NCBI RefSeq assembly: GCF_030580955.1
Contig: NZ_JAUQON010000001.1
Coordinates: 1-64,000 of the forward strand
Reading direction: 5' to 3'
DNA from: Hymenobacter convexus
GTDB lineage: Bacteria; Bacteroidota; Bacteroidia; Cytophagales; Hymenobacteraceae
Length of the DNA stretch: 64,000 bases
A program made the position numbers and the translations under genes. Below are positions 4,504 through 38,220 of this stretch, one piece after another (positions within the stretch are counted from its first letter, which is position 1; each line of letters opens with the position of its first letter). The notes beneath the pieces are model-generated. The model was not told where the DNA came from, ran no database searches, and was given only the letters and a program-made list of their open reading frames with translations.

Positions 4504-4566
4504 CAATAGTAGGTCAACGCTCTTGGATGCAGCGGGGCCATTTTGGAAAAAGACGGGTGCTTTTTC
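4504..4566 (-). promoter_or_regulatory. Predicted HTCS-controlled promoter of the GH105-kduD operon
   Basis: Read on the minus strand: box 1 GAAAAAGCACCC (4566-4555), box 2 CAAAATGGCCCC (4545-4534), 22 bp gap, then TACTATTG (4511-4504) as a Bacteroidota -7 element (consensus TAnnTTTG). The box period is 21 bp. The same layout occurs before SusC1, the second GH154, GH128 and GH2. Transcription would start near 4498, about 70 nt before the GH105 ATG. The neighbouring HTCS protein is the obvious candidate binder. Confidence 0.65.
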
Positions 4567-4611
4567 GTCGAGCCTGATTCGTATTGCTTTTGGAGCTGCT
4601 CATAAATCAAA

Positions 4612-4727
4612 AATCGTCTGTCATCCTGAACGCAGCGAAGGACCTTATCACGACTGGGCTATTCAGAAGCAATCAATCGGCGCAGGCGTGATAAGGTCCT
4701 TCGCTATGCTCAGGATGACAGACGATT
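4612..4727. repeat. Intergenic inverted repeat, GAAGGACCTTATC family
   Basis: 41-nt arms at 4612-4652 and 4687-4727 are inverted copies with 3 mismatches; core CATCCTGA...GCGAAGGACCTTATC. It sits just downstream of the HTCS stop codon and upstream of the GH105 promoter. A second copy is at 29491-29594. It may act as terminator or REP/MITE-like element. Confidence 0.85.
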
Positions 4728-4739
4728 CAGAAGGATGCT

Positions 4740-7700
4740 CTACGGCGCTACCGCTGAATCTTCAGCCGCCGAAGCCGCCGGCTCCCGGCCCGGCCGGTGC
4801 TGCTTGGCGTACTCGGAGGGCGAGACGTTGTAGATTTTCTGAAAGGCTTTGCGGAAGTACTTGGCGTCTTCAATGCCCACCTCGAAGGCCACTTCCGATA
4901 CGCGCATCTGCGTCTGGGCCAGGAGTTGGGCGGCGCGTTTCATCCGCACGTCGCGAATGAACTCCACGGCCGTCTGGCCCGTGATGCTTTTGATGCGACG
5001 GTAGAACACCGACTGGCTCATGGCCATTTCCTTCACCAGCACCTGCACGCTGAATTCCGAGTTATCGAGGTTGCGCTCCACCACGGCCATGGCGCTTTCC
5101 AAGAACTGGCGGTCGGCATCGGCCACTACGATTTCGGTGGGTTCGAGCAGGATGTGGCGCTGGTAGTACTCGTGCAGCTTGCGGCGGTTGCGCAGCAGCG
5201 CGTCGGCTTTGGCGTAGAGCAGCGTGGGGTTGAAGGGCTTGCTCATGTACTCGTCGGCGCCCATGCCGATGCCTTCGAGCTCGTGGGTTTCGGCCGTGCG
5301 GGCGGTGAGCAGCAGCACCGGAATGTGGGCCGTTTTGGGGTGCTGCTTGATTTTCTGGCACAATTCCAGGCCGTCGGAGCGCGGCATCATCACATCCGAA
5401 ATGACGAGGTCGGGCAGCTGGGCCAGGGCCTTGTCCCATCCTTCGAGACCGTCCTCGGCGGTGATGACGTCGTACTCGGCCTCAAACAGCTGCCGGATGT
5501 ACTGGCGCACCTCGTCGTGGTCTTCCACCACCAGCAGGCGCGGCTGGCGCGTAGCACTGGGTTCGGCATTGGGGAGCACAAACTCTTCAGCAACTGCAGG
5601 TTCTGGCTCAGCGGCAATTGGTGCTTCCATCGCCATGTCCGGCGTCGGCTCGTCTTCCTGAATATCTTCGGGCCGCAAATGCTGGTGGCCGAAGGGCAGG
5701 CGCAGCTCGAAAGTTGTGCCCAGGCCCTCGCCGCTGGTGGCGGTGAGCTGGCCGCCGTGCCGCTCGGCAAACTGCCGGGCCAGCGACAAGCCGATGCCCG
5801 TGCCCGTCATGCGCAGCGTGTTGGTGTGCGAGGCCTGGTAGTAGGGGTCGAAGATGCGCTCAATCTCGTTGTACTTGATGCCCACGCCGTTGTCGGCCAC
5901 GGTCACTTTCAGGTAGTTGCCGGTGAGGCGGCCGTTGCTGTACACGGCTTCGCCGCCGGGGTTGCCCACGGGCGTGGCCAGTAGCTCGACGCGCCCGTTG
6001 GTGCGGGTGTACTTGAAGGCGTTGGCCAGCAGGTTGGTGAGGATGATTTCGAGCTTGCTGCGGTCGAAATACAGCGGCACGGGCTCGGTGGGCAGGTCGA
6101 GTACGTACTTCACGCCGCGCTCCCGGGCCTTGAGGCTGAAGGTGGGGTAGATGTCGGTGATGAAGGCCACGGCGTCGCCGGGGGTGGCGCGCAGGGGCAC
6201 GTTGCCGGTTTCCACCTTGCGGAAGTCCAGCAGTTGGTTCACGAGGTCGAGCAGCTTGCGCGTCTGCTTGTGCATGAGCTCCACCTTTTCGCGTAGGCCC
6301 GCCACCGGCCCGGGGCTGTTGATGATTTCCTCCATCGGCCCGAGTATCAGCGTCAAAGGCGTGCGCAGCTCATGGCTCACGTTGGTGAAAAAGCCCAGCT
6401 TGAGGCCGGTGAGCTCCTTTTCCTTTTCGGTCTGGAACTGCTCCAGCGCCACCCGGTTTTTCAGGCGCTGCTGGGCCATTTCGATGCGCCGGTACAGGGC
6501 CACCGCGCCCAGCAATACCAGGGCATAAAGCCCGTAGGCCCAACCGGTTTTGTACCAGGGCGCGCGCACGTCGAAGCGCACGGTGGCGGCCTTTTTCGAC
6601 CACGCGCCCTCGCCGTTGCTGGCTTTTACTTCAAACGTGTACTGGCCCGGCGGCAGGTTGGCGAAGCTGGCGGTGCGCTGGCCGGGGGCCGGGTACACCC
6701 AGTTTTCGTTGTAGCCCACGAGGCGGTAGGCGTAGCGGTTTTTCTGCGGGTTGGCGTAGTTCAAACCCACAAATTCCACCGAAAAGTCATTCTCCGAGGC
6801 CTTGATGGTCACCGTCTGGGGCTGCGAGAGGGGCAGGGGCAGTACCACGCGGCCGTTGAGGGGCTGGCCCACGGCCACGGGCTGGTTGGCAATGCGCAGG
6901 CCGGTGAGCTGCACTACCGGCGGGTAAGGGTTGGGTTGAATGGCGTGCGGCTGGAAGTAGCTAATGCCGTTGATGCCCCCGAAATACAGGGTGCCGTCCT
7001 GGGCGCGGGCGGCGGCCCCAATCTTGAAGGCGTTGCTTTGCAGGCCGTCGGCCACGTCGTAGCGCAGGTACTGGCGAGTGGCGGGCTTGTAGCGGTAGAG
7101 GCCGGTGCCGCCAATCCAGAGGTGGCCCTCGTCGTCGGCCAGAATGCTTTCTACGTCGCTCTCGGGCAGGTATTTGGCCAGGCTGTGGATGCTTTCATTG
7201 CCCTGCGCGTCGGTGGTCAGTTGGTGCAGGCCACCGCCGATGGTGCCAATCCAGAGCGTGCCCCGGTCGTCGAGCAGCAGTGGCCACACGTAGTTCACGC
7301 GCAGGCCGTCGGGGGCGCCGGCGGCCTGCTTGAACTGCTTGAGCACGATGAGCGAATCGGCGGTAACGCGCAGCTTGAGCAGGCCCGCGTCGGCGGTGCT
7401 GGCCCAGAGCACGTCCTGCCGCCGGTCGTAGAGCAGGTAGGTGAAGCGGTTGGTGGGCAGGGCGCTGTTTTCCTGGCGGAAGGCGCCGAGGAACTTACCG
7501 TCGGTGCTCAGGCGCAGCAGGCCCGACGTGAACGAGGCCGCCCACAGCGTGCCAAACCGGTCTTCGGCCAAGCTTTCGAGGCTGAAGCTGCGCAGGTCGG
7601 GGCCGCCGGGCAACTGCTCGTAGGTGGTGAGGGTTTCGCGGCCGCCGGCGCGGGTGAGGCGGCTCAGCCCTGTCGTGCGGGTACCGAACCACAAGGCGCC

Positions 7701-9032
7701 GTTGCGGCTCTGGAAAATGGTCGAAACATCGACGCCGCGCGTGGCCCCGGCCCACTGCTGATTGAGGTAGCTGTGGGTGGTTTTGTGCGTGAGGTCGTAG
7801 CCGTACACGCCGTTGCGCGTGCCCGACCACAGAATGTTGGTGGCTTCTTCCTTATAAACCGCGTTGATATAGTTGTTGGCCAGCGTGGAGCCGCCCGACA
7901 GCTGCTGGCGCAGCCGTCCAAAGGGCTTCTGGCGCAAGTCGACCTGATTGAGGCCGCCGGCCGAGGCGCAGAGCCACATTATCTGGTTGCGGTCTTCAAA
8001 AATCTGGTGCACCCGCTCCGAATTGATGCCGAAGGGCTCGTTGTCCTGGGGCAGTAGCAGGGTGGGGTTGGGGCGCAGCGGCGGCGCGCTGCCGGTCACG
8101 GCGCCGGCCTCCCACACATACAGGCCGTAGATGGTGCCCACCCACAACCGATGAAACGAATCCATGCGGATGGACTGCAGCTGCGGGTAGGTTTGGGCCT
8201 GCGGGTGGGCCTGCAGCTGGCGCACGGTGCGGCGGTTGGCGGCGCTCACCCACCACACCTGCTGGTTGGTGCCAATCCAGAGGTCGCCGCGGGAGTCGAG
8301 GTGCAGCACGCGCACCCGCTCGGTCATGTCGGTGGGCTCGGCGCGCAGGTCGGCGCTTTCGGGGCGCACCACGCGCAGGCCGTGGTTGAAGGTGCCAATC
8401 CAGACCTTGCCTTCGGCATCGGTGGCCAGGCTGCTTACCTGGTAGTCATCAGTCGATTGGTCGGCGCGCGGCACCTGGCGCAGGCCGTTGAGGCGGCCCT
8501 GCGCATCGAAGCTGAGCACGAACACGCCCGCTACCGAAGTGCCCACCCACAGGCGGCCCTGCTTGTCCGACGTCAGGGCGTTGACGCTGGTCTGGCTCAG
8601 GCGCTGCATCAGAGAGCGGTAGGGGGCGGGCACCTGCTGCTCGTTGTAGCTGAGCAGGCGGTCGGCCGCCGCGTCGTAGAGGCCCAGGCCGGCGCGCTCG
8701 GTGCCCACCCACAGGCGGCCATCAGGCGCCGCCAGCAGGGCGCTGATGCGGTTGCCGGAAATGCCGTTGCGCGGGTTGATGGGCAGCGTGTATTGCTTGA
8801 GGCCGTAACCGTCGTAGCGGTCGAGGCCGCGGTTGGTGCCCACCCAAATGAAGCCGGCCTGGTCCTGGGCCACGGCCATGGCGTCGGAGTGGGAGAGGCC
8901 CTGGTCCACGGTGAGGTGCTCGAAGCGGAACTCGCTGGGGGCGGTGTCCTGGGCCCGCGCGGCCGGGGCCAGCCCGGGCCACCACGGCAGCAACAGCAAC
9001 GCGAGAAACTGCCAGCAGGCAAAAGCTTTCAT
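4740..9032 (-). CDS. Hybrid two-component system sensor/regulator (HTCS)
   Basis: A 1430-residue one-protein regulator. Order: signal peptide (1-28), a two-component propeller-repeat sensor region (about 35-700, many LWVGT/LWIGT repeats), Y_Y_Y domain (about 755-820), one membrane helix (about 826-846), HisKA with FTNVSHELRTPL (phospho-acceptor H887), HATPase_c (NLLANAFKYTR, ADNGVGI, GTGIGLSLA), receiver domain (ISDVMMPRSDG, acceptor D1213), and a C-terminal AraC-type helix-turn-helix (about 1325-1418). HTCS proteins sense oligosaccharides in the periplasm and activate PUL genes. It lies between two divergent loci whose promoters share a direct-repeat box, so it probably regulates both. All catalytic positions look intact. 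Confidence 0.97.
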   Translation of the reverse strand: MKAFACWQFLALLLLPWWPGLAPAARAQDTAPSEFRFEHLTVDQGLSHSDAMAVAQDQAGFIWVGTNRGLDRYDGYGLKQYTLPINPRNGISGNRISALLAAPDGRLWVGTERAGLGLYDAAADRLLSYNEQQVPAPYRSLMQRLSQTSVNALTSDKQGRLWVGTSVAGVFVLSFDAQGRLNGLRQVPRADQSTDDYQVSSLATDAEGKVWIGTFNHGLRVVRPESADLRAEPTDMTERVRVLHLDSRGDLWIGTNQQVWWVSAANRRTVRQLQAHPQAQTYPQLQSIRMDSFHRLWVGTIYGLYVWEAGAVTGSAPPLRPNPTLLLPQDNEPFGINSERVHQIFEDRNQIMWLCASAGGLNQVDLRQKPFGRLRQQLSGGSTLANNYINAVYKEEATNILWSGTRNGVYGYDLTHKTTHSYLNQQWAGATRGVDVSTIFQSRNGALWFGTRTTGLSRLTRAGGRETLTTYEQLPGGPDLRSFSLESLAEDRFGTLWAASFTSGLLRLSTDGKFLGAFRQENSALPTNRFTYLLYDRRQDVLWASTADAGLLKLRVTADSLIVLKQFKQAAGAPDGLRVNYVWPLLLDDRGTLWIGTIGGGLHQLTTDAQGNESIHSLAKYLPESDVESILADDEGHLWIGGTGLYRYKPATRQYLRYDVADGLQSNAFKIGAAARAQDGTLYFGGINGISYFQPHAIQPNPYPPVVQLTGLRIANQPVAVGQPLNGRVVLPLPLSQPQTVTIKASENDFSVEFVGLNYANPQKNRYAYRLVGYNENWVYPAPGQRTASFANLPPGQYTFEVKASNGEGAWSKKAATVRFDVRAPWYKTGWAYGLYALVLLGAVALYRRIEMAQQRLKNRVALEQFQTEKEKELTGLKLGFFTNVSHELRTPLTLILGPMEEIINSPGPVAGLREKVELMHKQTRKLLDLVNQLLDFRKVETGNVPLRATPGDAVAFITDIYPTFSLKARERGVKYVLDLPTEPVPLYFDRSKLEIILTNLLANAFKYTRTNGRVELLATPVGNPGGEAVYSNGRLTGNYLKVTVADNGVGIKYNEIERIFDPYYQASHTNTLRMTGTGIGLSLARQFAERHGGQLTATSGEGLGTTFELRLPFGHQHLRPEDIQEDEPTPDMAMEAPIAAEPEPAVAEEFVLPNAEPSATRQPRLLVVEDHDEVRQYIRQLFEAEYDVITAEDGLEGWDKALAQLPDLVISDVMMPRSDGLELCQKIKQHPKTAHIPVLLLTARTAETHELEGIGMGADEYMSKPFNPTLLYAKADALLRNRRKLHEYYQRHILLEPTEIVVADADRQFLESAMAVVERNLDNSEFSVQVLVKEMAMSQSVFYRRIKSITGQTAVEFIRDVRMKRAAQLLAQTQMRVSEVAFEVGIEDAKYFRKAFQKIYNVSPSEYAKQHRPGREPAASAAEDSAVAP

Positions 9033-9330
9033 GTGGGTGGGTGGGAATGAGAAGAACGGCGGGGGCCTGGGACAGGCCGGGGCGGCCGCGCGGCAGAACT
9101 GGCAAGCGAGGCCGCCAACGGTGCGGACGCGGCCCGCGCCAACCCGTGGGGCCCGACGGGACCTGCAAGGTAGCGACCCCGCGTGAACTGCCCGAACCGC
9201 CGCCGCAGGATTCGGCCCCCTTGCTGAAAATAGATAATTGAAAATAAGTTATTAAAAAACAGGTTGTTGCATGGCGGTATGCTTGGCTTTCAGGAATAGG
9301 GAGGGGGTGTTTTGCCAGCGCCGGCCCGCT
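9033..9330. other. Intergenic region, left half of the HTCS/SusC1 divergent spacer
   Basis: GC-rich near the HTCS start, then an AT-rich tract (about 9225-9265). A weak minus-strand -7 candidate, TACCTTG, is the complement of CAAGGTA at 9166-9172 and would give a long leader for the HTCS gene. GGGGTGTTTT (9304-9313) is a perfect inverted partner of AAAACACCCC at 9355-9364 in the SusC1 operator. I see no gene or RNA here. Confidence 0.4.
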
Positions 9331-9394
9331 GAATTTCACCCCACTGATTGGTGAAAAACACCCCGCCTGCCGGTAGTGAGGCCCGCTACTTTTG
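9331..9394 (+). promoter_or_regulatory. Predicted HTCS-controlled promoter of the SusC1 operon
   Basis: Box 1 GAATTTCACCCC (9331-9342) and box 2 GAAAAACACCCC (9353-9364) are direct repeats with a 22-bp period. After a 22-bp gap comes TACTTTTG (9387-9394), a perfect TAnnTTTG -7 element. Box 2 would sit where the -33 element is normally found, as expected for an activator that replaces it. The leader before the SusC1 ATG at 9528 would be about 125 nt. Confidence 0.7.
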
Positions 9395-9527: not shown

Positions 9528-12500
9528 ATGCGTAAACCCTTACCCTCAAGGTCTCTTCGCCGGTTGCTGCTGCTGGCAGCCGCGGGCCTGGCCGGCACCA
9601 CGGCCGCCCAGGCGCAGGTGATGAACATGCCGGTGATGCCCCCGCGCGCCACCACGCCCGCCGACACGGCCAAGACCGCCGACCAGTCGATGCCGACCGT
9701 CACCCTCTTCACGCCGTCGGTGACGGACGAGAACGGTGAGCCGCTGCCGGGCGTGGCGCTAGCCAACGGCGGCAGCAACAGCTACACCGTGGTGACCGAC
9801 TCGCTGGGCCAGGCCCGGATGCCGGACGTGAAAGCCGGCGAAACGCTGACCGTGAGCATCGACGGCTCGGTGATTCGGCGCTTCGCGGTGACGGACGACC
9901 TGACGCCTTCCATCGTCCTCGACACCAAGAACCCGGCCGTGGCCCGCCTCAAGCCGGTGCGCCTGCTCTACGGCACCAGCCTGCGGCCCGACCTCACGGC
10001 CGCCTCGACCCAGACGGTGTACAACGCGGCGCTAATGCGCCTGCCCGTGACGTCGTTTGTGACGGCGCTGGCCGGGCAGGGCGCGGGCCTGCAGGTGACG
10101 CAGATTTCGGGCCAGCCGGGCACCGACGTGGGCAATGCCCTGCTGCTGGGCCGGGCGCCCACGGTGGTGATTGACGGCATTGTGCGGCCCATCTACAACT
10201 TTGATTTGGAGGAGATTGAGTCGGTGACGCTGCTGAAAGACGCGCTGAGTTCCTCCATGCTGGGCGTGCGCAACACCAACGGCGGCATTCTGAACGTGAC
10301 CACGCGCCGGGGCACGCCCGGGCAGCCGCGCATCTCGTTCACGGTGCAGTCGGCCATTCAGGAGCCCATCAAGCTGCCCAAGCCGCTGGACGCCTACAAC
10401 TACGCCAGCCTCTACAACGAGGCGCAGACGAACGACAACGCAACCAACCCGGTGGCCGGCTTTCAGCCGCGCTTTTCGGCCGACGACCTGCAGAAGTACC
10501 GCGACGGCTCCGACCCCATCGGCCACCCCAACGTGAACTGGTTCGACCAGCTCCTCAAGAAGTCGTCGAAGCTGGACCGCTACACATTTTCGGCCACTGG
10601 CGGCAACAAGTTCTCGCGCTACTTCGTGAGCCTGGAGCACCTGAGCCAGACGGGCCTGCTGAAAACCAGCGACATCAACAAGTACAACACCAGCAACGAC
10701 TACAAGGCCTACATCGTCCGCTCGAACGTGGATTTGCAGCTGAGCCGCAAGCTCACCGGCGGCATCGGCCTGCTGGGCCGCATCCTGACCTCGAACGACA
10801 CGGGCGCCAACTTCGGCCAGGGCCTGCCGTCCATCCTGAACACGCTGTATAACACGCCCGCGCTGGCCTACCCGGTGTACAACGCCAACGGCAGCTACGG
10901 CGGCAACCAGCAGTTCACCAATAACCTGTGGGCCCAGACCATCGGCTCGGGCTACCGGCAGCTCTACAACCGCGACGTAGTAGCCGACTTCTACCTGCGC
11001 CGCACCCTGGACGAGCTGACGCCCGGCCTGTGGGTGCGCGCCCTGGCCTCGTACTACGCCAGCTTGTCGGAAACGGTGTACCGCGACAAAACCTTTGCCG
11101 TGTTCCAGCAGGGCACCAACGCCGCCGGCCAGCCCACCTACACGCAGTACGGCACCAACGGCGACCAGCAGAACAACAACGGCGTCAACTTCCAGAACAA
11201 CACCACTTACCTGGAAGCCGACCTGGGCTACGACCGGCAGTTCGGCGAGCACGGCCTGCACGCCGTGGCGCTGGCTTCGCGCCAGTCGCTGCTGCAGGAG
11301 TCGGACCTGCCCTACACGGTGCAGGGCCTCTCGGGCCGGGCATCGTACAACTACAAGGGCAAGTACGTGGCCGAGCTGGCCTTCGGCCTGAACGGCTCGA
11401 ACCGCTACCCCGACAACGGCAACTTCAAGTACGGCTTCTTCCCCTCGGCCGGCCTGGCCTGGAATGTGTCGCGCGAGGACTTTATGAAGGGCACCCAGCC
11501 CTGGCTGTCGTACCTGAAGCTGTACGGCTCCTACGGCCTGACCGGCAACGACGTACCGGGCTACTTCACCTACATTCAGACCTACTTCGATACCTCGGCG
11601 CCCTACTTCGGCACCGGCGCCGGCACGCAGTTCTCGAACAGCGAGCAGATTCTGGCCTCGCGCAACCGCACCTGGGAGAAGGGCCGCAAGCTGAGCCTGG
11701 GCCTGCAGGGTGCCGTGCTCGACAACCACCTGGGCTTCACGGTGGAGTATTACAACTCGCTGTACTACGACCTGTTGCAGCAGCGCGGCCGGAGCAGCAC
11801 GCTCATTGGCCAGCTGTACCCGGACGAAAACATCGGCCGCAACCGCTACCAGGGCATCACCACCCAGCTCAGCTACCAGCAGAACTTCGGCCAGCTGAGC
11901 CTGCTGGCCGCCGTGAACGTGGGCGTGCAGTACTCGAAAGTGGAATACCAGGACGAGGTGTACCGCCCCTACCCGTGGATGCAGCGCACCGGCCAGCCGG
12001 TGGGCCAGGCGTTTGGCTACGTGGCCGACGGCCTGTTCCAGAACCAGGCCGAGATTCAGGGCGCCGCCACCATCGTGGGCTACACGCCCCAGCCCGGCGA
12101 CATCCGCTACAAGGACCTGAACGGCGACGGCGTGATTAACCAGTTCGACATCGCGCCCATTGGCGATGCCAACCCCAGCATTCCGTTCGGCGTGACGCTG
12201 GGCGCCCGCTGGAAAGGCTTCGACTTCACCACCCTGCTGCAGGGCAGCCTGAGCCGCGTCATCTACCTGCAGGGCGCTTCGGAGTACGCCTTCCAGAACG
12301 GCGGCTTCGGCGGGGCCTTCGAGCAGCACCTCGACCGCTGGACGCCCGACAACCCCAACGCCAGCTACCCGCGCCTGAGCCTGGGCAACAACCTGAACAA
12401 CTACGCGCCCACCAGCAGCTACTGGCTGCACGACGCCAGCTACATGCGCCTCAAGAACGTGGAGCTGGGCTACACCCTGCCGCTGAACCTGAGCAAGCGC

Positions 12501-12644
12501 GTGCGCCTGCAGGGCATCCGCTTCTTCGCCAACGGCACCAACCTGGTGACCTTCAGCCAGTACGACCGCGTGGACCCGGAGATTTTCAACGCCGCCTACC
12601 CGCAGCAGCGCCTCATCAACTTCGGCGTCAACCTCAAGCTCTAA
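9528..12644 (+). CDS. SusC-like TonB-dependent outer-membrane receptor (SusC1)
   Basis: 1038 residues from the ATG at 9528, chosen because MRKPLPSRSLRRLLLLAAAG...QAQ is a proper signal peptide; an upstream in-frame ATG would add 19 unlikely residues. After a low-complexity linker comes a CarboxypepD_reg-like domain (about 50-130: PSVTDENGEPLPGV), a plug (IDGIVRPIYNFDLEEIESVTLLKDA, GGILNVTTRRG) and a 22-strand-type barrel ending in NFGVNLKL. The usual VVGYG motif is not evident. SusC proteins import oligosaccharides with TonB energy and pair with a SusD lipoprotein, here 24 nt downstream. It is the first gene after the HTCS-type promoter. No STN domain is present, in contrast to SusC3. Confidence 0.95.
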   Translation: MRKPLPSRSLRRLLLLAAAGLAGTTAAQAQVMNMPVMPPRATTPADTAKTADQSMPTVTLFTPSVTDENGEPLPGVALANGGSNSYTVVTDSLGQARMPDVKAGETLTVSIDGSVIRRFAVTDDLTPSIVLDTKNPAVARLKPVRLLYGTSLRPDLTAASTQTVYNAALMRLPVTSFVTALAGQGAGLQVTQISGQPGTDVGNALLLGRAPTVVIDGIVRPIYNFDLEEIESVTLLKDALSSSMLGVRNTNGGILNVTTRRGTPGQPRISFTVQSAIQEPIKLPKPLDAYNYASLYNEAQTNDNATNPVAGFQPRFSADDLQKYRDGSDPIGHPNVNWFDQLLKKSSKLDRYTFSATGGNKFSRYFVSLEHLSQTGLLKTSDINKYNTSNDYKAYIVRSNVDLQLSRKLTGGIGLLGRILTSNDTGANFGQGLPSILNTLYNTPALAYPVYNANGSYGGNQQFTNNLWAQTIGSGYRQLYNRDVVADFYLRRTLDELTPGLWVRALASYYASLSETVYRDKTFAVFQQGTNAAGQPTYTQYGTNGDQQNNNGVNFQNNTTYLEADLGYDRQFGEHGLHAVALASRQSLLQESDLPYTVQGLSGRASYNYKGKYVAELAFGLNGSNRYPDNGNFKYGFFPSAGLAWNVSREDFMKGTQPWLSYLKLYGSYGLTGNDVPGYFTYIQTYFDTSAPYFGTGAGTQFSNSEQILASRNRTWEKGRKLSLGLQGAVLDNHLGFTVEYYNSLYYDLLQQRGRSSTLIGQLYPDENIGRNRYQGITTQLSYQQNFGQLSLLAAVNVGVQYSKVEYQDEVYRPYPWMQRTGQPVGQAFGYVADGLFQNQAEIQGAATIVGYTPQPGDIRYKDLNGDGVINQFDIAPIGDANPSIPFGVTLGARWKGFDFTTLLQGSLSRVIYLQGASEYAFQNGGFGGAFEQHLDRWTPDNPNASYPRLSLGNNLNNYAPTSSYWLHDASYMRLKNVELGYTLPLNLSKRVRLQGIRFFANGTNLVTFSQYDRVDPEIFNAAYPQQRLINFGVNLKL

Positions 12645-12668
12645 TTCCCACCCGCCGCTTCTGTTCCG

Positions 12669-14411
12669 ATGAATACGAAACTATACGCCGCGGCCCTGGC
12701 CGCCGTGCTGGCCCTGGGCACCACCGCCTGCCAGAAAGACCCCGAAACCGAGCCGCGCAACCTCATCCGCGACGACACGGAGTGGGACGCGAAGGACCGC
12801 AACGCCACCGTGGCGCTGTACTTCTTCAACGACCTGTTCAACTACATGCCCGGCGGCTTCAACCGCATTGGCGACGGCACCGGCGACTTCCTGGCCGCCG
12901 GTACCGACGACGCCCTGCCCTCGCGCCTCAACCGCCCGGTGCAGTACTTCACCAACGGCGCCATCAGCGTGGTGAACAACCCCGATGCCTACTGGGCCTC
13001 GGCCTACGCCGGCATCCGCCGCGTCAACATCTTCCTGGCCAACATTGACCGCGTGCCCGCCCTGCCGGCCAACATCGTGATTTGGAAGGCCGAAGCCCGC
13101 TTCATCCGGGCCATGCTCTACTTCGAGCTGCTGAAGCGCTACGGCGGCGTGCCGCTCATTGGTGACAAGATTTTCACGCTCGACGACGACCTGTCGGTGC
13201 CGCGCAACACCTACGCCGAAACGGTGAACTACATCGTGAGCGAGTGCGACCTCATCAAGCCCGACCTGCGCCTGCCCGCGGCCATTCCGGACGGCGAGTG
13301 GGGCCGCATTCCGCGCACGGCCGCTTTCGCCCTCAAGAGCCGCCTGCTGCTGTACGCCGCCAGCCCGCTCTTCAACGGCGGGCAGGTGAACGGCGCCGGC
13401 GACCGCCAGGGCTACCCCAACGCCGACGCCAACCGCTGGCAGCTGGCCCTCACCGCCGCCCAGGACCTCATCGCCCTGAACGCGCACTCGCTGGTGACCA
13501 CGCCGGCGGCCACGGCCTTCCCCAGCGTATTCACGGTGAAGAAGAACAGCGAGATTATTCTGGCCAAGCAGGCCAGCAACAACACCACGCTCGAAGTGTG
13601 GAACGCGCCGATGGGCTACGGCGCACCGGCCGCCAGCCAGGGCCTCACCAGCCCCAGCCAGAACTTCGTGGACGCTTTCCCGATGCTCTCGGGCGCGGCC
13701 ATCACCGACGCCGGCTCGGGCTACAACCCGCAGAACCCCTACGCCAACCGCGACCCGCGCCTGCTGTTCTCGGTTTTTGCCAACGGCGTGACCACCGGCA
13801 CCACCACCACCGGCAGCCGCTGGCTGAGCCGCAACGTGGAAACCTTCGACGGCGGCCGCGACCGGCCCGGCGGCGGGGCCGTGCAAACCCGCACCGGCTA
13901 CTACCTGCGCAAGTTCCTGGGCGATTTCACCACCTCGACCTCGTACTCGAACCAGAGCCACAACTTCCCCCTGTTCCGCTACGCCGAGACGCTGCTCAAC
14001 GCCGCCGAGGCCCTCAACGAGCTGGGCCGCACCACCGAGGCGCTGACTGCGCTGGTGCCGCTGCGGCAGCGGGCGGGCCTCACGGCGGGCACGGGCAACC
14101 GCTACGGCATCCCGACCACACTGAGCCAGAGTGACGCCCGCACCTTCATCCGCAACGAGCGCCGCATCGAGCTGGGCTTCGAGGAGCACCGCTTCTGGGA
14201 CCTGCGCCGCTGGAAAACGGCCGAGACAGTGCTCAACTCCCCGCTCTACGGCGTGCAGATTGTGAAAGGCGGCTCGGCCACGGCGCCCACCTACACCTAC
14301 ACGCGCACCACGGCGGCCAATTTGACCTGGCAGAACCGGCTCTACTACATGCCGCTGCCCTACGACGAGACGACCAAGAACCTGAACCTGACGCAGAACC
14401 CTGGCTGGTAA
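12669..14411 (+). CDS. SusD/RagB-like surface glycan-binding lipoprotein (SusD1)
   Basis: 580 residues. MNTKLYAAALAAVLALGTTACQKD is a lipoprotein signal with the lipobox Cys about residue 21. Typical SusD features follow: the TPR-like helices with EARFIRAMLYFELLKRYGGVPLI, RLLLYAASPLFNG, and the C-terminal FIRNERRIELGFEEHRFWDLRRWK. It binds glycan at the surface and acts as the lid of SusC1, whose stop lies 24 nt upstream. The end NLTQNPGW is usual for the family. Confidence 0.95.
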   Translation: MNTKLYAAALAAVLALGTTACQKDPETEPRNLIRDDTEWDAKDRNATVALYFFNDLFNYMPGGFNRIGDGTGDFLAAGTDDALPSRLNRPVQYFTNGAISVVNNPDAYWASAYAGIRRVNIFLANIDRVPALPANIVIWKAEARFIRAMLYFELLKRYGGVPLIGDKIFTLDDDLSVPRNTYAETVNYIVSECDLIKPDLRLPAAIPDGEWGRIPRTAAFALKSRLLLYAASPLFNGGQVNGAGDRQGYPNADANRWQLALTAAQDLIALNAHSLVTTPAATAFPSVFTVKKNSEIILAKQASNNTTLEVWNAPMGYGAPAASQGLTSPSQNFVDAFPMLSGAAITDAGSGYNPQNPYANRDPRLLFSVFANGVTTGTTTTGSRWLSRNVETFDGGRDRPGGGAVQTRTGYYLRKFLGDFTTSTSYSNQSHNFPLFRYAETLLNAAEALNELGRTTEALTALVPLRQRAGLTAGTGNRYGIPTTLSQSDARTFIRNERRIELGFEEHRFWDLRRWKTAETVLNSPLYGVQIVKGGSATAPTYTYTRTTAANLTWQNRLYYMPLPYDETTKNLNLTQNPGW

Positions 14412-14413
14412 GA

Positions 14414-14551
14414 GGTGAACTGGTGAGGTGGTGAACTGGTGAGATGGCGGGTGACGAGACAGGCTCTGCAAGGCCGTTTTGTCGCTTCGCCTTCGCCAGT
14501 AACCGCTTATTAATCACCATCCCACACCTCCCCATTTCACCACTGAATTTC
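14414..14551. repeat. 16-bp tandem repeat with inverted counterpart between SusD1 and SusC2
   Basis: GGTGAACTGGTGAGGT (14414-14429) is followed directly by GGTGAACTGGTGAGAT (14430-14445). An imperfect inverted counterpart (CCATTTCACCACTGAA region) lies at about 14515-14550. The transcript could fold between the two gene pairs. No promoter of the HTCS type is visible in this 151-bp gap. Confidence 0.6.
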
Positions 14552-14562
14552 CCACCCGACTT

Positions 14563-17500: not shown

Positions 17501-17712
17501 AAACCGCCCAAATCAACTACGACCTGCCCACCAGCTTCATGCGCTACCTGGGCATTCCCTCGGCCCGCATCTACGCCAACGGCACCAACCTGCTCACCTG
17601 GTCGGCCGTGGATAAGCTCTACGACTTCGACCCCGAGGTGACGCTCAACACCTCGCGCCCGCTATACCCGCCGCAGCGCCTCATCAACTTCGGCATGAGC
17701 GTCACTTTTTAA
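14563..17712 (+). CDS. SusC-like TonB-dependent outer-membrane receptor (SusC2)
   Basis: 1049 residues with signal peptide MKNVLFIVLLLVLSALGQRAAAQ. A CarboxypepD_reg domain covers about 26-100 (VQGTVRDAQGPVPGVAV), followed by VTVVGFGEQKK and the plug with LIIVDDVQYSYDQFQRLDPNEIESLSILKDA and ANGVVVVTTRRG; the barrel ends INFGMSVTF. It is paired with SusD2. Its resemblance to SusC1 (for example the shared phrase FSDDDLQKFRDGSDPYGHPNVNW) suggests an old tandem duplication of the pair, with specialisation for different oligosaccharides as the likely reason to keep both. It probably belongs to the SusC1 transcript or to a promoter I cannot see. Confidence 0.95.
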   Translation: MKNVLFIVLLLVLSALGQRAAAQNRTVQGTVRDAQGPVPGVAVYEKDLTSNGTTTDPEGRYSLAIKGKSGILIFRSVNYKLSEVQVGTRTSVDVKLESADQSLDEVTVVGFGEQKKITQTGSVSQVSGKEIRENPSASLQNTLVGRLPGFFSQQPSGRPGADGAAFFIRGISSYNGNNQPLIIVDDVQYSYDQFQRLDPNEIESLSILKDAATTAIYGVRGANGVVVVTTRRGKDGPPQISARVEFGLTQPTKFTNYLDAAESARLYNQAQINDNEFNPVPGFKPRFSDDDLQKFRDGSDPYGHPNVNWRKVLFKDWSQQYRANVDMSGGSQRVKYFVSVGYLYQNGLLNDFGSSAGVNSNYFHQRYNYRSNLDINITKGLDARIDLYGNFGQVNIPRVNTPFSSAFNANDDVFYDYSSFPTLAPFAYPIYNPDGSYGYSKWSRDVNSGYNVNNIVGRLTNNGYRRNNENNINGVFSLKQDLGVFADGLKGLNVTGRLAYTSNYGYYRQMTRTDFPSFIYTPATATTPESYEARDPNLYRTRPFALGYSGGSTSRVVNLQAIVNYDRTFGKHHVYGLALYNRNANTAANGDYTYNFIPANFLGYSGRLGYDYDNRYLIQFNAGYNGSDRFSADNRYGLFPAVSAGWNVAEESFFRAAVPAVTYLKLRGSYGLVGNDALGNQFTYYYQQNYGSGSGYDFGLNSTGAPGIQEGRLANNDVTWEKEKKLDVAVEFRLFKDQLFGSADFFNNDRYDILTTRGTVSSIFGQSLPPVNLGRVNNRGYELELGYQSPISKDFSWSIKGNYSFAKNKILFQDEPVPQYEYQRFTGNSIGQQRVYVFQGFYSAADIASRDVAKPASGARPGDLKYEDLNGDGVINDFDRKVTGLPNLPNTTYGVNLGARYKGLSVSVLFQGASNFNVSGAAEAIKAFTANLSAVHQNAWTPELGDNAQYPRLTLLPSISDPSSNQSTFWQISGNYVRLKTAQINYDLPTSFMRYLGIPSARIYANGTNLLTWSAVDKLYDFDPEVTLNTSRPLYPPQRLINFGMSVTF

Positions 17713-17720
17713 TGATTAAC

Positions 17721-17820
17721 GGTTGAATGGCTTAACGGCTAGATGGTTGAATTGTCGCTTGACTGATTTTGCCAACCTTGAAGCCCATCCATTCAACAGT
17801 TCAACAGTTTAGCCATCTCA
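17721..17820. repeat. Imperfect inverted repeat between SusC2 and SusD2
   Basis: The left part is rich in GGTTGAATGGC / TAGATGGTTGAA units and the right part (17788-17820) in CCATTCAACAGTTCAAC units, giving long imperfect pairing. It fills nearly the whole 112-bp gap. It could attenuate or stabilise the SusC2 message relative to SusD2. It is similar in style to the repeat at 14414. Confidence 0.55.
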
Positions 17821-17824
17821 TCAG

Positions 17825-19537: not shown

Positions 19538-19549
19538 GGGAGTGCCTCG

Positions 19550-21630: not shown

Positions 21631-21639
21631 TTTCCGCTC

Positions 21640-24604: not shown

Positions 24605-24667
24605 GAAAACAGGGGCGCTTATTGCCGAAAATGGCCCCGCCAGCCCCTTCCCGGCGGGGTACCTTTG
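24605..24667 (+). promoter_or_regulatory. Predicted HTCS-controlled promoter of the second GH154 gene
   Basis: Box 2 GAAAATGGCCCC (24627-24638) fits the consensus [CG]AAAATGnCCCC. After 21 bp comes TACCTTTG (24660-24667), a perfect TAnnTTTG. Box 1 at 24605-24616 (GAAAACAGGGGC, period 22) keeps only its first half. CCCCGCC/GGCGGGG (24635-24641, 24653-24659) also form a hairpin that overlaps the box. The start codon at 24692 would leave a leader of about 20 nt. Confidence 0.65.
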
Positions 24668-29490: not shown

Positions 29491-29594
29491 CTGTCATCCT
29501 GAGCGTAGCGAAGGACCTTATCTCGTTCGCATTAGCTGAGTTACTGCCAATGATTCTTCGGTGATAAGGTCCTTCGCTGCGCTCAGGATGACAG
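29491..29594. repeat. Intergenic inverted repeat, GAAGGACCTTATC family (copy 2)
   Basis: 32-nt arms (29491-29522 and 29563-29594) with one mismatch; same core as 4612-4727. It lies 28 bases after the GH30 stop and before the GH51 start. The right arm is open in the GH51 frame and could mislead a start prediction (SFAALRMT residues). Confidence 0.88.
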
Positions 29595-32380: not shown

Positions 32381-32532
32381 AGCACGTCATGTCGAGTGCA
32401 GTCGAGACATCTTGCGTGTTGTCACTAATTCAATCAGCTGGCTCCCCTCTCCTTTGGGAGAGGGGCCGGGGGTGAGGCGCCACGCCAGAACGAAGCACGC
32501 AAAATGTCTCGGCAAGCTCAATAAGACGTGCT
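32381..32532. repeat. Composite intergenic repeat (AGCACGTCATGTCGAG outer arms)
   Basis: Outer arms at 32381-32418 and 32496-32532 are imperfect inverted copies (CGTCATGTCGAGTGCAGTCGAGACAT type). Inside lies half of a GGCGCCTCACC-family element (32440-32490). It looks like one repeat inserted into or fused with another, between the GH43 stop and the GH128 promoter. Confidence 0.7.
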
Positions 32533-32555: not shown

Positions 32556-32619
32556 GAATATGCCCCCTTTTTTTACGCGAAATGCCCCCGTTGCTGGCTC
32601 ATGGGCCGAAGTAGTATTG
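32556..32619 (+). promoter_or_regulatory. Predicted HTCS-controlled promoter of the GH128 gene
   Basis: Box 1 GAATATGCCCCC (32556-32567), box 2 CGAAATGCCCCC (32578-32589), period 22. A 22-bp gap leads to TAGTATTG (32612-32619), a one-mismatch TAnnTTTG. The spacing is the same as before SusC1. The GH128 ATG lies 76 bases further on. Confidence 0.68.
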
Positions 32620-32694: not shown

Positions 32695-35600
32695 ATGGTA
32701 AACTTTTCCCCTCAACGGGCGCCGTGGCGGCGTCCTATCTATCTGTTAATGACCCTGGCCTGGGCCTGGCTGGCCAGCACGGCCGCCCTGGCCCAATCGA
32801 CGGCCAACGACCTGACGGCCGCCTGGCTCGGCACCATCGACCAGGCCAATTTGCAGGTGACCGGCCTGCCCGCCAACGGTCGGGTGGCGCAGCTGCTTTC
32901 GGGCAGCCAGTACTCGGCCGGCGCCACTATTAAAGTGGTGAATGGGGCCGGCGTGCCGGTAGCCAAGAATACGGTGCTCGCCAGCGGCCTCAGCATCGTG
33001 GTGACCAGCGCCAGCGGTGCCCCCAAGAGCTATGCGTTGCAAGCCAACGGCGCGGCCCTGCCGGTGCAAACCGTCAGCAACGCCCCCAGCAGCACGCAGG
33101 CCAGCATCACGAACAGCATCCTGAGCATCAGCGGGGACTCGGAGTATCACTTCACGGGGAGCAACCCGCTGCCGGGCACGATGATAGATATGCAGGGCGA
33201 CAACGTGTGGCTGTATTTTGAGGGCGTGCGGCCGTCGAAGTTCAACCAGCGGCTGCTGGCGCAGGTGACGGTGAACGGCCAGCGCGCCCAGATTGACACC
33301 ACCGTGCGCCTGGTGCAGTACCTGCAAGGATGCGTACTCATCAGCCAACCCGCTACTTACCAGCCGTTGCAGGCCTACACCGCCGCCAGCCTGGGCGGCA
33401 GCGCCATGCAATTTGACCAGTATACTTACTACAAAACGGCCGAGCTAGGCGCGTTCAACAACGCCATTGCGTCGTTCCGGCTGAAGAAGGGATACATGGC
33501 CACCTTCGCCGAAAATGAGGACGGCACGGGCGCCAGCAAGGTGTACATCGCGCCCGATAACGACATTACCATCAACACGCTGCCGACGAATCTGCAAGGT
33601 AAAATCTCGCTGGTGCGGGTGTTTCCGTGGGCCTGGGTGAGCAAGAAGGGCTGGTGCAGCGCCCCGCTGCTCGGCGACTCGCTGCACGCGGCCTGGAACT
33701 ACAACTGGAACAACAACGGCCAGTCGACGCTGGACATGGAGTACGTGCCGATTCGGCAGACGCAGTACTGGCCCGGTTTTGCTACGACGAACGCCAAGAA
33801 GAAGGTGACCCACCTGCTGGGCTACAACGAGCCTAATTCGACCCAACAGGCCAACATGAGCCCCCAGACGGCCATGCTGAACTGGCCCGGCCTGCTGCAA
33901 TCGGGTCTGCGCGTGGGCTCGCCGGCCCCGACGGACGGCGGCGCCAGCTGGCTGTATTCCTTCATCGACAAGGCCGACTCGGCCGGCTACCGGGTCGACT
34001 ACGTGGCCATTCACTTCTACCGGGGCTGCCAGACGGCCTCGCAGTTCTACGGCTTTCTGAAAGCCATTTATGACCGCACCAAGCGGCCCATCTGGATTAC
34101 GGAATTCAATAACGGCGCCAACTGGACCAGCTCGACGGGCTGCCCCAAGCCGACGTATGCCGAGGAAGCGGCCAAGATTCAGAGCTTCATCACGATGCTC
34201 GACACGGCGCGCATTGTGGAGCGTTACTCGCTGTACCAGTGGGTGGAAGACACGCGCAAGATGTTCGTGACCGACTCGGACCCCAGCTCCATCACGCCGG
34301 CCGGCATTGTGTACCGCGACAAGATTTCGCCCATGGCCTACGACCCCACGCTGGTGCCGCCCACCGTGAGTGTGCCCGTGCCGGTGCCCTTCGGGCGCGG
34401 CAACCTGGCCGTGACGCGCTACGGCAGCAGCTCCTGGACGGGCGGCACCGGCGCCACGCTGCCGGTGTACATCGACGAGTTTGCGCCCGTGAGCGGGCCG
34501 CTGTATTCGGCCGGACAGCTGATGCGGACCGTGAATATTCCGACCGCGAACTACGGGGCCAACTTCGGCTACGTGGGCTCGGCCATGAAAGCCAACGCCG
34601 ACGGGGCCATCGGCATCTCGCCCGACCGCACCAAAATGGCCATTTCGGGCTTCAACTCGGCCACCGGCAACACCAACGTGAATGGCGGCACCTCGCCCCG
34701 CGTGGTGGCCATTCTGGACGCCGACGGCAACCTCGACACCCGCACCGGCTTCTCGGACGGCAACAGCCAGCCCATGCGCACGGCCACCGTCACGGACAGC
34801 GCCACGGTGTACATCGCCTACGGCAACAACAGCTACGGCCTGCGCCACGCCTCGCTGCCCCGCACCGTGACCAACACGCCGCAGACGCGCACGGGCGTCA
34901 CCATCTTCCCCACTATCAGCCTCAAAAAGCTGGCCGTATACGAAGGCAACCTGTACTTCACCACCTCCACCGTGCCGGGCGCGGCTTCGACCTCCGGCGG
35001 GCCGGTGGCGCCGACGACCACCAAGGTGATGCGCCTGAACGGGATGCCGGGCCGGGCTTCGACGCCCGTCACGCTGCCGGGCCTGCCGGCGCCGTCGTCG
35101 ACCTCGCAGCCGGGTGGCTTCGTCATGTTCGACGTGAACCCCAACGTGCCGGGCTTCGACCTGCTCTACTACACCGACGACACGCCCACGCCCACGCTCA
35201 ACAAGTACACCTTCAACGGCACTACCTGGACGGCGCGTGGCACCTTCACCATCACGGGCCTGAACGACAACCTGCTGCGCGACATGACCGGCACGCTGGT
35301 GCGCGGCGTGCCCACGCTGTACGGGGTGAGCTATACGTCCATCGTGCGCCTCGAAGACCGGGCCACCACCTACACGCTGGCCAATCCGGCCTTCACCAAC
35401 AACCTGAGCGTGACGCAGACGGTGCTGAAAAACAATGCCGCCAGCACCACCTACGCCTACCGTGGCATCGCCTTCACACCCGGCACCCGCGACTCGCTTT
35501 ACGTGCGCGTGCCCCAGACCATCACCTTCAACCCCATTGCCGACCAAATGCAGGGCGCGGCCGATTTTTACCCCAACGCCACTACCACCTCGGGCCTGCA

Positions 35601-37617
35601 GCTGGGCTACGCCACGTCTGATTTGAACGTGGCCACGGTGAACAACGGCCTCATCAGCATCGTGGGGTCGGGCACGGTCACCATCACCGTAAGCCAGCCC
35701 GGCGACTTCAAATACCTAGGTGCCACGCCGGTGTCGCGCACCTTCACGGTGCTAAGCGACCTCACCGTGGCCGCCGGCCAGCAGATGAACATGAGCACCA
35801 GCAGCCGCTACGGCAACGTGTTGGTTCAGGGTGAATTGACCCTGAGCGCCCCGCTCGCGGCGGCCGGCACTATCACGGTAGCCAGCGGCGGCATGCTGAA
35901 CACCGGCTGCCAGGCCATCACCGGCGCGGCCGATTTCCGGGTGGAAGCCGGCGCGGAACTGCGCGTGTGCGACGCGGCCGGCATCATGCCCACCGGCGTG
36001 ATGAGCGGCGCGGTGCAAACCACCGGCACCCGCACCTTCAGCCCCGACGCTAGCTATGCCTACCTGGGCACCGTGGCGCAGCAAACCGGCCTCGGCTTGC
36101 CCGCCGAAGTGCGCGGCCTGCTGGTGCAAAACCCGGCCGGCGTGACGCTGAGCGCGCCCTTGCAGGTGCATCAGCTGGTGCGCCTCACGCAGGGCAACCT
36201 GAGCTTGGGCACCCAGCCCCTCACGCTGCTTTCCGACGCCAGCGGCACGGCCCTGGTCGACAACACCGGCGGCGCAGTGCTGGGCACCGTGACCATGCAG
36301 CGCTATATCGACCCCACATTGAACTCCGGCCCGGGCTACCGCCACTACAGCGCCCCGGTGAGCAACACGACGGTGAATGATTTGGCCACCAGCGGCTTCG
36401 CGCCGGCCGTGGCCGGCAGCGCCTTCCCCACCGTGTACGGCTACGACCAGAGCCGCCTGACTTCCGCCGCCAATTTCTTCGACCAGGGCTGGGTGGCTCC
36501 GGCCGCACTCAGCACGCCGCTGGCTGTGGGCCAGGGCTACACCGTGAACCTGCCCGCCACCGAGCTGGTGGACTTCGTAGGCACGCTGAACAACGGCAAT
36601 ATTAATCTAAACCTGACGCGCGGCGTGCCCTCCGAAGCCGGCTGGCAGCTGCTGGGCAACCCCTACCCGGCCCCGCTCGACTGGAGCACGGTGACGGTGC
36701 CCGCCGGCCTGGGCAGCGCCATGTATGTGTACCAGAGCACCGGCCAGTATGCCGGCAGCTACCGCAGCTATGCCAACGGCATCGGGCAGTCGCCGCTGAT
36801 TCCGGCGGGCCAGGGCTTTTTTGTGCGGGTGAACACGGCGGGCGCCACGCCCACGCTGGCCCTCAGCAACGCCAACCGCGTCACCACCTTCGGCGCCCAG
36901 CCCGCCATGCAGCGCGGTGCCGGAACCCGCCCGCTGGTGCAACTGCAGTTGAGCAGCGCGGCCGGTGCGGCCGATGACGCCTACGTGTACTTCGAAGCCG
37001 GCGCCACCGCCGGCCCCGATGCCCGCTACGACGCGCCCAAGCTGCGCAACGTGGGTTCTGCTGCCCTGAACGTCTTCTCGCTGGCAGCTGGTACGGAGCT
37101 GAGCATCAATGGCCTGCCGCAGCCGGGCGCGCAAAGCCTGGTGGTGCCGCTGGGCGTGGCCGTGTCCCAGGCCGGCACCTACACCCTCCGCGCCGAGCAG
37201 CTGCTGAACCAGACCGGTAGCGTGGCCCTGCGCGACGCCCTGACCGGCACCGTGCTCCCGCTGACCGCCCAGGCCACTTACCGTTTCTCGGTAGCGGCCG
37301 GCGCGTCGGCTACGGGCCGCTTCTCGCTGCTGTTTGGCCCGCAGCAGGTGCTGAGTATGACCAACGCCCTCAGCCAGCAGGTGACGCTCTTCCCGAACCC
37401 GGCCCACGGCGAGGTGCAGCTCAGCCTGCCCGCTGTCCTGCAGTCGGAAGTCCTGAAGGCTGACGTGCTGAATGCTCTGGGCCAGACGGTGCTCACGCGC
37501 ACGCTGCCGGCCGGGGCGCTGCGCCTGCTGCCGCTCGGCGGGCTGGCTGCGGGCGTGTACACGGTACGCCTGGCCACCAGCCAGGGCACCATTAGCAAGC
37601 GCCTGCTGGTGCAGTAG
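32695..37617 (+). CDS. Large GH128 beta-1,3-glucanase-like protein with T9SS sorting domain
   Basis: 1640 residues. Order: signal peptide (1-34, ending AALAQ), two beta-rich domains (about 35-230), a beta/gamma-crystallin-like segment (about 240-300: SFRLKKGYMATFAENEDGTGASKVYI), the GH128-type glycosyl hydrolase core (about 305-550) with E379 in GYNEPNS and E470 in WITEFNNG as catalytic pair, a propeller-like region (about 570-940), Ig-like and adhesin-like beta domains, and a C-terminal type IX secretion signal (about 1565-1640: LFPNPAHGEVQLSLP...GVYTVRL...KRLLVQ). GH128 enzymes cut beta-1,3-glucan. The T9SS tail implies export across the outer membrane. It has its own HTCS-type promoter and a strong terminator. 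Confidence 0.88.
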   Translation: MVNFSPQRAPWRRPIYLLMTLAWAWLASTAALAQSTANDLTAAWLGTIDQANLQVTGLPANGRVAQLLSGSQYSAGATIKVVNGAGVPVAKNTVLASGLSIVVTSASGAPKSYALQANGAALPVQTVSNAPSSTQASITNSILSISGDSEYHFTGSNPLPGTMIDMQGDNVWLYFEGVRPSKFNQRLLAQVTVNGQRAQIDTTVRLVQYLQGCVLISQPATYQPLQAYTAASLGGSAMQFDQYTYYKTAELGAFNNAIASFRLKKGYMATFAENEDGTGASKVYIAPDNDITINTLPTNLQGKISLVRVFPWAWVSKKGWCSAPLLGDSLHAAWNYNWNNNGQSTLDMEYVPIRQTQYWPGFATTNAKKKVTHLLGYNEPNSTQQANMSPQTAMLNWPGLLQSGLRVGSPAPTDGGASWLYSFIDKADSAGYRVDYVAIHFYRGCQTASQFYGFLKAIYDRTKRPIWITEFNNGANWTSSTGCPKPTYAEEAAKIQSFITMLDTARIVERYSLYQWVEDTRKMFVTDSDPSSITPAGIVYRDKISPMAYDPTLVPPTVSVPVPVPFGRGNLAVTRYGSSSWTGGTGATLPVYIDEFAPVSGPLYSAGQLMRTVNIPTANYGANFGYVGSAMKANADGAIGISPDRTKMAISGFNSATGNTNVNGGTSPRVVAILDADGNLDTRTGFSDGNSQPMRTATVTDSATVYIAYGNNSYGLRHASLPRTVTNTPQTRTGVTIFPTISLKKLAVYEGNLYFTTSTVPGAASTSGGPVAPTTTKVMRLNGMPGRASTPVTLPGLPAPSSTSQPGGFVMFDVNPNVPGFDLLYYTDDTPTPTLNKYTFNGTTWTARGTFTITGLNDNLLRDMTGTLVRGVPTLYGVSYTSIVRLEDRATTYTLANPAFTNNLSVTQTVLKNNAASTTYAYRGIAFTPGTRDSLYVRVPQTITFNPIADQMQGAADFYPNATTTSGLQLGYATSDLNVATVNNGLISIVGSGTVTITVSQPGDFKYLGATPVSRTFTVLSDLTVAAGQQMNMSTSSRYGNVLVQGELTLSAPLAAAGTITVASGGMLNTGCQAITGAADFRVEAGAELRVCDAAGIMPTGVMSGAVQTTGTRTFSPDASYAYLGTVAQQTGLGLPAEVRGLLVQNPAGVTLSAPLQVHQLVRLTQGNLSLGTQPLTLLSDASGTALVDNTGGAVLGTVTMQRYIDPTLNSGPGYRHYSAPVSNTTVNDLATSGFAPAVAGSAFPTVYGYDQSRLTSAANFFDQGWVAPAALSTPLAVGQGYTVNLPATELVDFVGTLNNGNINLNLTRGVPSEAGWQLLGNPYPAPLDWSTVTVPAGLGSAMYVYQSTGQYAGSYRSYANGIGQSPLIPAGQGFFVRVNTAGATPTLALSNANRVTTFGAQPAMQRGAGTRPLVQLQLSSAAGAADDAYVYFEAGATAGPDARYDAPKLRNVGSAALNVFSLAAGTELSINGLPQPGAQSLVVPLGVAVSQAGTYTLRAEQLLNQTGSVALRDALTGTVLPLTAQATYRFSVAAGASATGRFSLLFGPQQVLSMTNALSQQVTLFPNPAHGEVQLSLPAVLQSEVLKADVLNALGQTVLTRTLPAGALRLLPLGGLAAGVYTVRLATSQGTISKRLLVQ

Positions 37618-37713: not shown

Positions 37714-37956
37714 ATGCTTTATCAGTCACATTCTCGTTGCCGAACCTTGCTGATAGCCGGTTTGCTGCTGGGCGGGGCCACTCTGCAGGCGGTGCAGGCC
37801 CAGCCTAGCTCAGGCGGGCCCGGGCCCGGCACCCCACCGGCCATTACCGATGCGCCCCTCGATGGCGGAGCTTCGCTGCTACTGGCATCCGGCGTTGGCT
37901 ACGGCCTGGCGCGGCTGCGGCGGGTGCGAGGCCTGAAAAAGGCAGCAGGCGTTTAA
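37714..37956 (+). CDS. Small PID-CTERM-type secreted/anchored protein
   Basis: 80 residues: an N-terminal signal (MLYQSHSRCRTLLIAGLLLGGATLQAVQAQ), a Gly/Pro-rich spacer (PSSGGPGPGTPP), then a C-terminal tripartite end with a P-[LI]-D motif (DAPLDGGA), a short hydrophobic helix (SLLLASGVGYGLA) and a basic tail (RLRRVRGLKK). This matches the PID-CTERM pattern that I recall from Bacteroidota small proteins, thought to be a sorting signal. Function is unknown. It stands alone between terminators, after a T9SS-exported GH128 and before GH2. Confidence 0.7.
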   Translation: MLYQSHSRCRTLLIAGLLLGGATLQAVQAQPSSGGPGPGTPPAITDAPLDGGASLLLASGVGYGLARLRRVRGLKKAAGV

Positions 37957-38068
37957 TGAAGCGTACTGTCGTCTTGGACGGTCTGTGTGGTTCGTGCCCC
38001 GGTGCCTTTTGCAACTGGAGCAGCTGCCACGCCTGAGCCGGCTAGCGCTGCGTTTCTCATCCCAATAG

Positions 38069-38108
38069 CAGGGCTGGTTGACTTCGCGTCGGCCAGCCCT
38101 GTTGCTTT
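38069..38108 (+). terminator. Terminator after the PID-CTERM-type gene
   Basis: CAGGGCTGGTTGAC (38069-38082) pairs with GTCGGCCAGCCCTG (38088-38101) over 14 bp including two G-U pairs, loop TTCGC, then TTGCTTTT. The rest of the gap 37957-38068 shows no gene. Confidence 0.7.
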
Positions 38109-38157
38109 TAGGGCATGGCCCCTGCATCGTTCAGGCGCTTTTTAGCGGGTGCAGCCC

Positions 38158-38220
38158 GAAAACTACCCCTCTATTTCCCAAAATGTCCCCCCTGGCCGGA
38201 AAGCCGCAGCGGTAGTATTG
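38158..38220 (+). promoter_or_regulatory. Predicted HTCS-controlled promoter of the GH2 gene
   Basis: Box 1 GAAAACTACCCC (38158-38169), box 2 CAAAATGTCCCC (38179-38190), period 21. After 22 bp comes TAGTATTG (38213-38220), identical to the -7 element of the GH128 promoter. The GH2 start is 70 bases downstream. Confidence 0.68.

Follow-up and report, generated by a model that had tools for sequence, protein, structure and literature searches.

AraC at the araBAD half-sites I1/I2 and the class II AraC-family activators of Enterobacteria bind a pair of half-sites arranged head to tail, roughly two turns of the helix from each other, with the proximal half-site beside the core promoter. Direct repeats of AraC are also treated in PMC9723621. 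For the HTCSs of the Bacteroidota, Ravcheev et al. predicted the operators of 16 regulators of B. thetaiotaomicron in 2013, and the main text of their study describes these as direct repeats that are on average 21 bp apart (PMC3878776). Receiver-AraC fragments of two B. thetaiotaomicron HTCSs, BT4124 and BT4663, bind SusC-gene promoter DNA in gel shifts, and no direct-repeat or spacing analysis was found in the main text of that report (PMC11253607). As far as the main text of PMC3878776 describes such regulons, the Hymenobacter locus presented here is best read as an HTCS regulon of the same kind, because each sequence-level membership feature that was tested was found in it.

The locus and its five box promoters

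The window, as we call the whole 64,000-nucleotide stretch of DNA analysed, comes from a Hymenobacter genome of 5.98 Mb in 18 contigs. Its HTCS gene (4740-9032, minus strand) encodes 1430 amino acids, and Pfam finds in this single chain a Reg_prop propeller, a Y_Y_Y sensor, HisKA, HATPase_c, Response_reg and a C-terminal AraC-type HTH_18 (residues 1332-1411), so that the regulator that the initial annotation had seen between two of the sites does end in an AraC domain. Its own genome holds one close copy of it. The gene adjoins the SusC/SusD pairs at 9528-19537, of which the first SusC has a weak Pfam match but is directly followed by a clear SusD, and no DNA-binding regulator besides this HTCS was found at 0.25-44.4 kb. 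The locus probably serves the digestion of plant arabinogalactan, given its set of enzymes (GH105, GH154, GH43, GH35, GH30, GH2, GH128, BNR_4) and the partly similar enzyme sets of published loci (PMC8406133).

Five promoters carry two boxes and a -7 element. On the minus strand, the GH105 promoter has box 1, GAAAAAGCACCC, at 4555..4566, box 2, CAAAATGGCCCC, at 4534..4545 and the -7 element TACTATTG at 4504..4511; its predicted unit, GH105-GH154a-GH43a-SDR, covers 252-4426, and since the longest GH105 ORF (GTG 4504) overlaps the -7 element, ATG 4426 is the likely start. The other four are on the plus strand. That of SusC1, with box 1, GAATTTCACCCC, at 9331..9342, box 2, GAAAAACACCCC, at 9353..9364 and the -7 element TACTTTTG at 9387..9394, would serve SusC1-SusD1-SusC2-SusD2-GH35-GH43-GH30 (9528-24588). 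The GH154b promoter has the variant box 1, GAAAACAGGGGC (CCCC to GGGG), at 24605..24616, box 2, GAAAATGGCCCC, at 24627..24638 and the -7 element TACCTTTG at 24660..24667; the longest-ORF start of GH154b overlaps or precedes this promoter and has to be moved downstream, probably to GTG 24692, from which the predicted unit GH154b-GH43-GH30-GH51-GH43 runs to 32359. Before GH128, predicted to be transcribed alone (32695-37617), lie box 1, GAATATGCCCCC, at 32556..32567, box 2, CGAAATGCCCCC, at 32578..32589 and the -7 element TAGTATTG at 32612..32619. The same -7 element, TAGTATTG, recurs at 38213..38220 in the GH2 promoter, behind box 1, GAAAACTACCCC, at 38158..38169 and box 2, CAAAATGTCCCC, at 38179..38190, and the predicted unit there comprises GH2, a 241-aa ORF and BNR_4/GH16 (38290-44419).

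Box 1 starts 21-22 bp 5' of box 2 at all five promoters, the gaps between box 2 and the -7 element (GH105, SusC1, GH154b, GH128, GH2) are 22, 22, 21, 22 and 22 bp, and the probable start codons lie 32-141 bp downstream of the -7 elements, counted from the first base of each. The initial annotation had given the five box-2 sequences, the five -7 elements and their coordinates exactly; its inventory of promoter parts was right on the boxes and the -7 element and overlooked a T-run before box 2 as well as the recurrence of the GGGG box 1. It had described box 1 of GH154b as half kept, which holds for the A-rich half; the other half is not merely lost, since the change from CCCC to GGGG recurs. 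At this position the orthologous GH154b promoter of genome G039 reads GAAAACAGGGTG (GGGTG), and GATTTGAGGG (GGG) is found in several GH35 promoters that belong to a related HTCS group. Judged from the promoters compared, the GGGG box 1 is a recurrent form and not simple decay. Where it occurs, the GGG(G) box 1 and box 2 form a partial inverted repeat around the T-run, as seen in the window at 24605-24638 and at L074, L075, L077, L079, L080 and L184.

Together the five promoters account for all operons from 252 to 44419 but one, the HTCS gene, where a box is lacking, and the HTCS at 4740-9032 very likely switches on the whole cluster. In the home genome the pattern AAANNNCCCC-N22-TANNNTTG (box 2, gap, -7 element) has five matches on both strands, four of which are annotated sites, and its reversed control has two; the N21 version matches the GH154b site and the hairpin that also makes up the fifth N22 match. 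This match, at C14:382934, is a GC hairpin followed by a T-run, resembles a terminator and was rejected. The two-box pattern with up to two mismatches recovers four of the five sites and one stray match, and isolated box-2 matches exist elsewhere in the genome. Neither the box 2-(-7) pattern nor the two-box pattern revealed further regulon members outside the locus in this genome; the genome-wide scan proposed as a check gave matches nearly confined to 0.25-44.4 kb.

Two other candidates in the window were set aside. A match at 37652 (CCAAATGGCCCC) lies within a GC-rich inverted repeat 3' of GH128, lacks a -7 element and is a probable terminator, and for an inverted half-site (GGGGGTGTTTTGCC, about 9303-9316) 5' of SusC1 box 1, the strand on which it lies shows no evident -7 element and the model gives no score. 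The genome also contains a palindromic repeat, GTCATCCTGAGC-NN-AGCGAAGGACCTT, often in inverted pairs (273 copies with up to two mismatches), which occurs in the window at 4693-4719 and 29493-29592, one of these lying between the HTCS gene and GH105; another repeat, GGAGAGGGGCCGGGGGTGAGGC, which is intergenic, is present 21 times (with one mismatch at most), once at 32457-32478, 5' of GH128.

The second locus of the window (45.9-63 kb) had been said to have no such box, and none was found there by pattern or by the fitted model described below. It has an ECF sigma factor (62497-63087) and a FecR-type anti-sigma (61244-62269) of its own, adjoining a SusC/SusD pair and GH30/GH5/esterase genes, which explains the absence. 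The ECF sigma and FecR genes (61244-63087) head this second locus, and the two neighbouring loci appear to be under different control systems.

Co-occurrence of operator and regulator

We surveyed 120 Hymenobacter genomes for the two-box plus -7 pattern, allowing at most one mismatch and counting as close an HTCS of at least 50% identity. The pattern occurs in 38 of the 45 genomes with a close HTCS vs 4 of the 75 without (Fisher p = 1.3e-19), and of the 99 matches in genomes that have the HTCS, 74 are no more than 40 kb away from it, where about 2 are expected; a reversed control pattern gave 4 matches over all 120 genomes. Seven of the 45 HTCS-bearing genomes have no match to this strict pattern; the HTCSs of several of them are broken, partial or among the most diverged, and a fitted model finds sites near most. 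This model, which comprises box 1, the T-run, box 2 and the -7 element with a threshold of 20 bits, finds 112 sites in 61 close-HTCS neighbourhoods (the window included) and 0 in 20 neighbourhoods of distant HTCSs, and in the window exactly the five annotated sites and nothing extra; it was trained on the close-set sites, so that only two of its results count as independent, the empty controls and the lack of extra matches in the window. The HTCS homologues L103, L104 and L105 (genomes G118, G062 and G061) seem to be split into several frames, and the boxes are still there.

The genes that follow the sites are the same ones. In other genomes, sites that lie apart from the HTCS stand before orthologues of GH2, GH128, GH105/GH154 and SusC; because these loci were picked by pattern match, the informative part is solely which gene follows the site. 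The motif is kept 5' of orthologous operons in genomes that have the orthologous regulator. It is also shared among similar DNA-binding domains and absent beside dissimilar ones: within the close set these domains are 63-98% identical, both recognition helices included, compared with 33-49% for the controls, and the fitted model finds no such sites beside L164 and L165, HTCSs from two other genera with 33-35% identity. One clade (L086, L087, L091, L093 and L098; support 100) mostly has an altered box, ACCCGG and then a T-run, beside different neighbour genes, which implies that the box tracks the regulator and not the target genes. The prediction that the HTCS controls all five units is therefore supported: the site occurs with a close homologue, clusters beside the HTCS gene and precedes the same genes. 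A further conserved stretch, approximately AAAAGCCCCCTTGCCGCCCCAAAAAGTCCCCCTACCTTTG, in genomes G020, G039, G043, G057 and G065 may be the operator of another regulator.

It is improbable, though worth weighing, that the boxes are bound by another protein, one inherited along with the locus or active across the genome (for example a regulator of the CRP-like or LacI type), and that the HTCS only co-occurs with them. Block inheritance of the locus makes every one of its genes correlate with the site and accounts for part of the co-occurrence; the role of the HTCS as box binder is, moreover, itself predicted from sequence. However, no second regulator for the task was found at 0.25-44.4 kb, genomes without the HTCS have nearly no sites, and the sites remain beside HTCS homologues whose neighbour genes differ, with box details that follow the HTCS clade. 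Direct repeats about two turns apart also suit AraC-type domains. Against the main reading, cross-talk could occur in genomes that carry two close HTCSs.

Spacing, core promoter and proposed activation

As the search pattern had been built from the five sites, the independent test of the geometry was moved to other genomes with the pattern unchanged. For the test set, 60 neighbourhoods were taken around close homologues of the HTCS (51-91% identity, the next-best identity dropping to 33-43%), and for the control set 20 neighbourhoods of distant HTCSs. In the test set, gaps of 20, 21, 22 and 23 bp between box 2 and the -7 element gave 3, 11, 34 and 21 matches (69, with some C-runs counted twice), and all other gaps from 8 to 39 bp gave 2 in total; box-to-box periods of 20, 21, 22, 23 and 24 bp gave 2, 6, 15, 15 and 5 matches (43), and all other periods 1, so that no spacing outside these two ranges had more than one match. 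The 20 control neighbourhoods had none at gaps of 20-23 bp or periods of 20-24 bp. Once double counts were removed and the boxes fitted, the gap was 22 bp in 45 of 51 sites and the period 22 bp in 44 of 51, and a motif-free search for self-similarity 5' of the -7 elements of the close set peaked at 21-22 bp, with 25 of 44 matches over 26 offsets.

Over 145 distinct sites, the period is 22 bp in 112 (range 20-24), and in 117 the end of box 2 and the -7 element are 22 bp apart. Box 1 is approximately SAAWTTNNCCCC and is followed by about 8-10 bp with the T-run; box 2 is approximately SAAAATNSCCCC and is followed by 22 bp without conserved sequence and then by TASTWTTG. This agrees with the direct repeats, about 21 bp from centre to centre, that are expected before the target operons of an HTCS regulon. 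Each box is made of an A-rich half and a C-rich half about 7-8 bp apart, a spacing that would fit the two HTHs of one AraC-type domain entering successive major grooves.

The promoter of B. fragilis is TAnnTTTG with TTTG at -33 (PMC7366714). Here TTTG or TTGC stands at the -33 position in 9 of the 145 sites, an absence that is weak evidence because the -33 motif is not identifiable in Flavobacterium johnsoniae either (PMC7366714). It is plausible that box 2 takes the place of the -33 element, but this element may be rare in the group anyway.

We therefore propose, with considerable confidence in a reading drawn from sequence comparison, that the HTCS is the activator of the entire 0.25-44.4 kb polysaccharide utilization locus and acts through a dimer on two boxes beside the polymerase. 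A glycan, the presumed signal, would bind the periplasmic propeller, and the receiver domain would then be phosphorylated. The two AraC-type domains of the HTCS dimer would bind head to tail on the two boxes (approximately SAAWTTNNCCCC and SAAAATNSCCCC), which lie 22 bp apart on the same face of the helix with the T-run in between. With box 2 ending 22 bp 5' of the -7 element TASTWTTG, the proximal subunit would rest against RNA polymerase at the -33 position, as in class II activation.

A location beside the core promoter would permit blocking too, and the HTCS might, once bound to the boxes, repress or switch both ways instead of simply activating. We think this quite unlikely, since the boxes lie 5' of the -7 element and not over it, at a constant spacing of 22 bp, with a -33-like sequence at so few of the 145 sites, and since Bacteroides HTCSs are described, as far as the main texts of PMC11253607 and PMC3878776 go, as inducers of their own loci. 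That GC-rich intergenic DNA yields AAA...CCCC and TAnnnTTG by accident can practically be dismissed: the pattern was selected after the sites had been seen and the genome does have lone box-2 matches in other places, but in other genomes the fixed pattern gave sharp spacing peaks and 112 vs 0 sites, the reversed controls stayed at background, and the spacing spectra, the 120-genome survey and the fitted model refute it.

With the activator reading, one HTCS clade from outside Bacteroides gains a clean operator that holds throughout the genus and whose position with respect to the Bacteroidota -7 promoter is exactly defined. Such an operator allows one to enumerate the regulon across dozens of Hymenobacter genomes, to find pathway enzymes outside the main locus and to test the contact between HTCS and RNA polymerase by simple spacing mutants. 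We speculate, giving the idea somewhat less than an even chance, that two boxes 22 bp apart followed by 22 bp to the -7 element are a general rule of HTCS activation in Bacteroidota, in which only the letters of the boxes vary by clade and the GGGG box 1 may be read in the other orientation. If this rule, with its GGGG form, were true, HTCS regulons would become predictable from genome sequence alone.

Comparison with described regulators

Like the I1/I2 half-sites of AraC, the Hymenobacter boxes lie about two helical turns apart, and the proximal one would stand beside the core promoter. AraC, however, is a soluble, sugar-binding protein that works at -10/-35 promoters, whereas the Hymenobacter system combines a -7 promoter with a membrane HTCS and, as predicted, activation by phosphorelay. 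The gel shifts with BT4124 and BT4663 place HTCS output domains on SusC promoters, although the target genes differ (PMC11253607).

The closest likeness is to the B. thetaiotaomicron regulons as the main text of PMC3878776 presents them: an AraC-type HTCS beside SusC/SusD, tandem repeats about 21 bp apart before the operons, a likeness of motifs that tracks the likeness of regulators, and the inclusion of some distant operons. The present regulon differs from those in that it belongs to another genus and order, has GC-rich boxes and has a period of mostly 22 bp. Two of its features were not found stated in that main text and are documented here over 145 sites: the -7 element follows box 2 at a fixed distance of 22 bp, and a T-run lies between the boxes.
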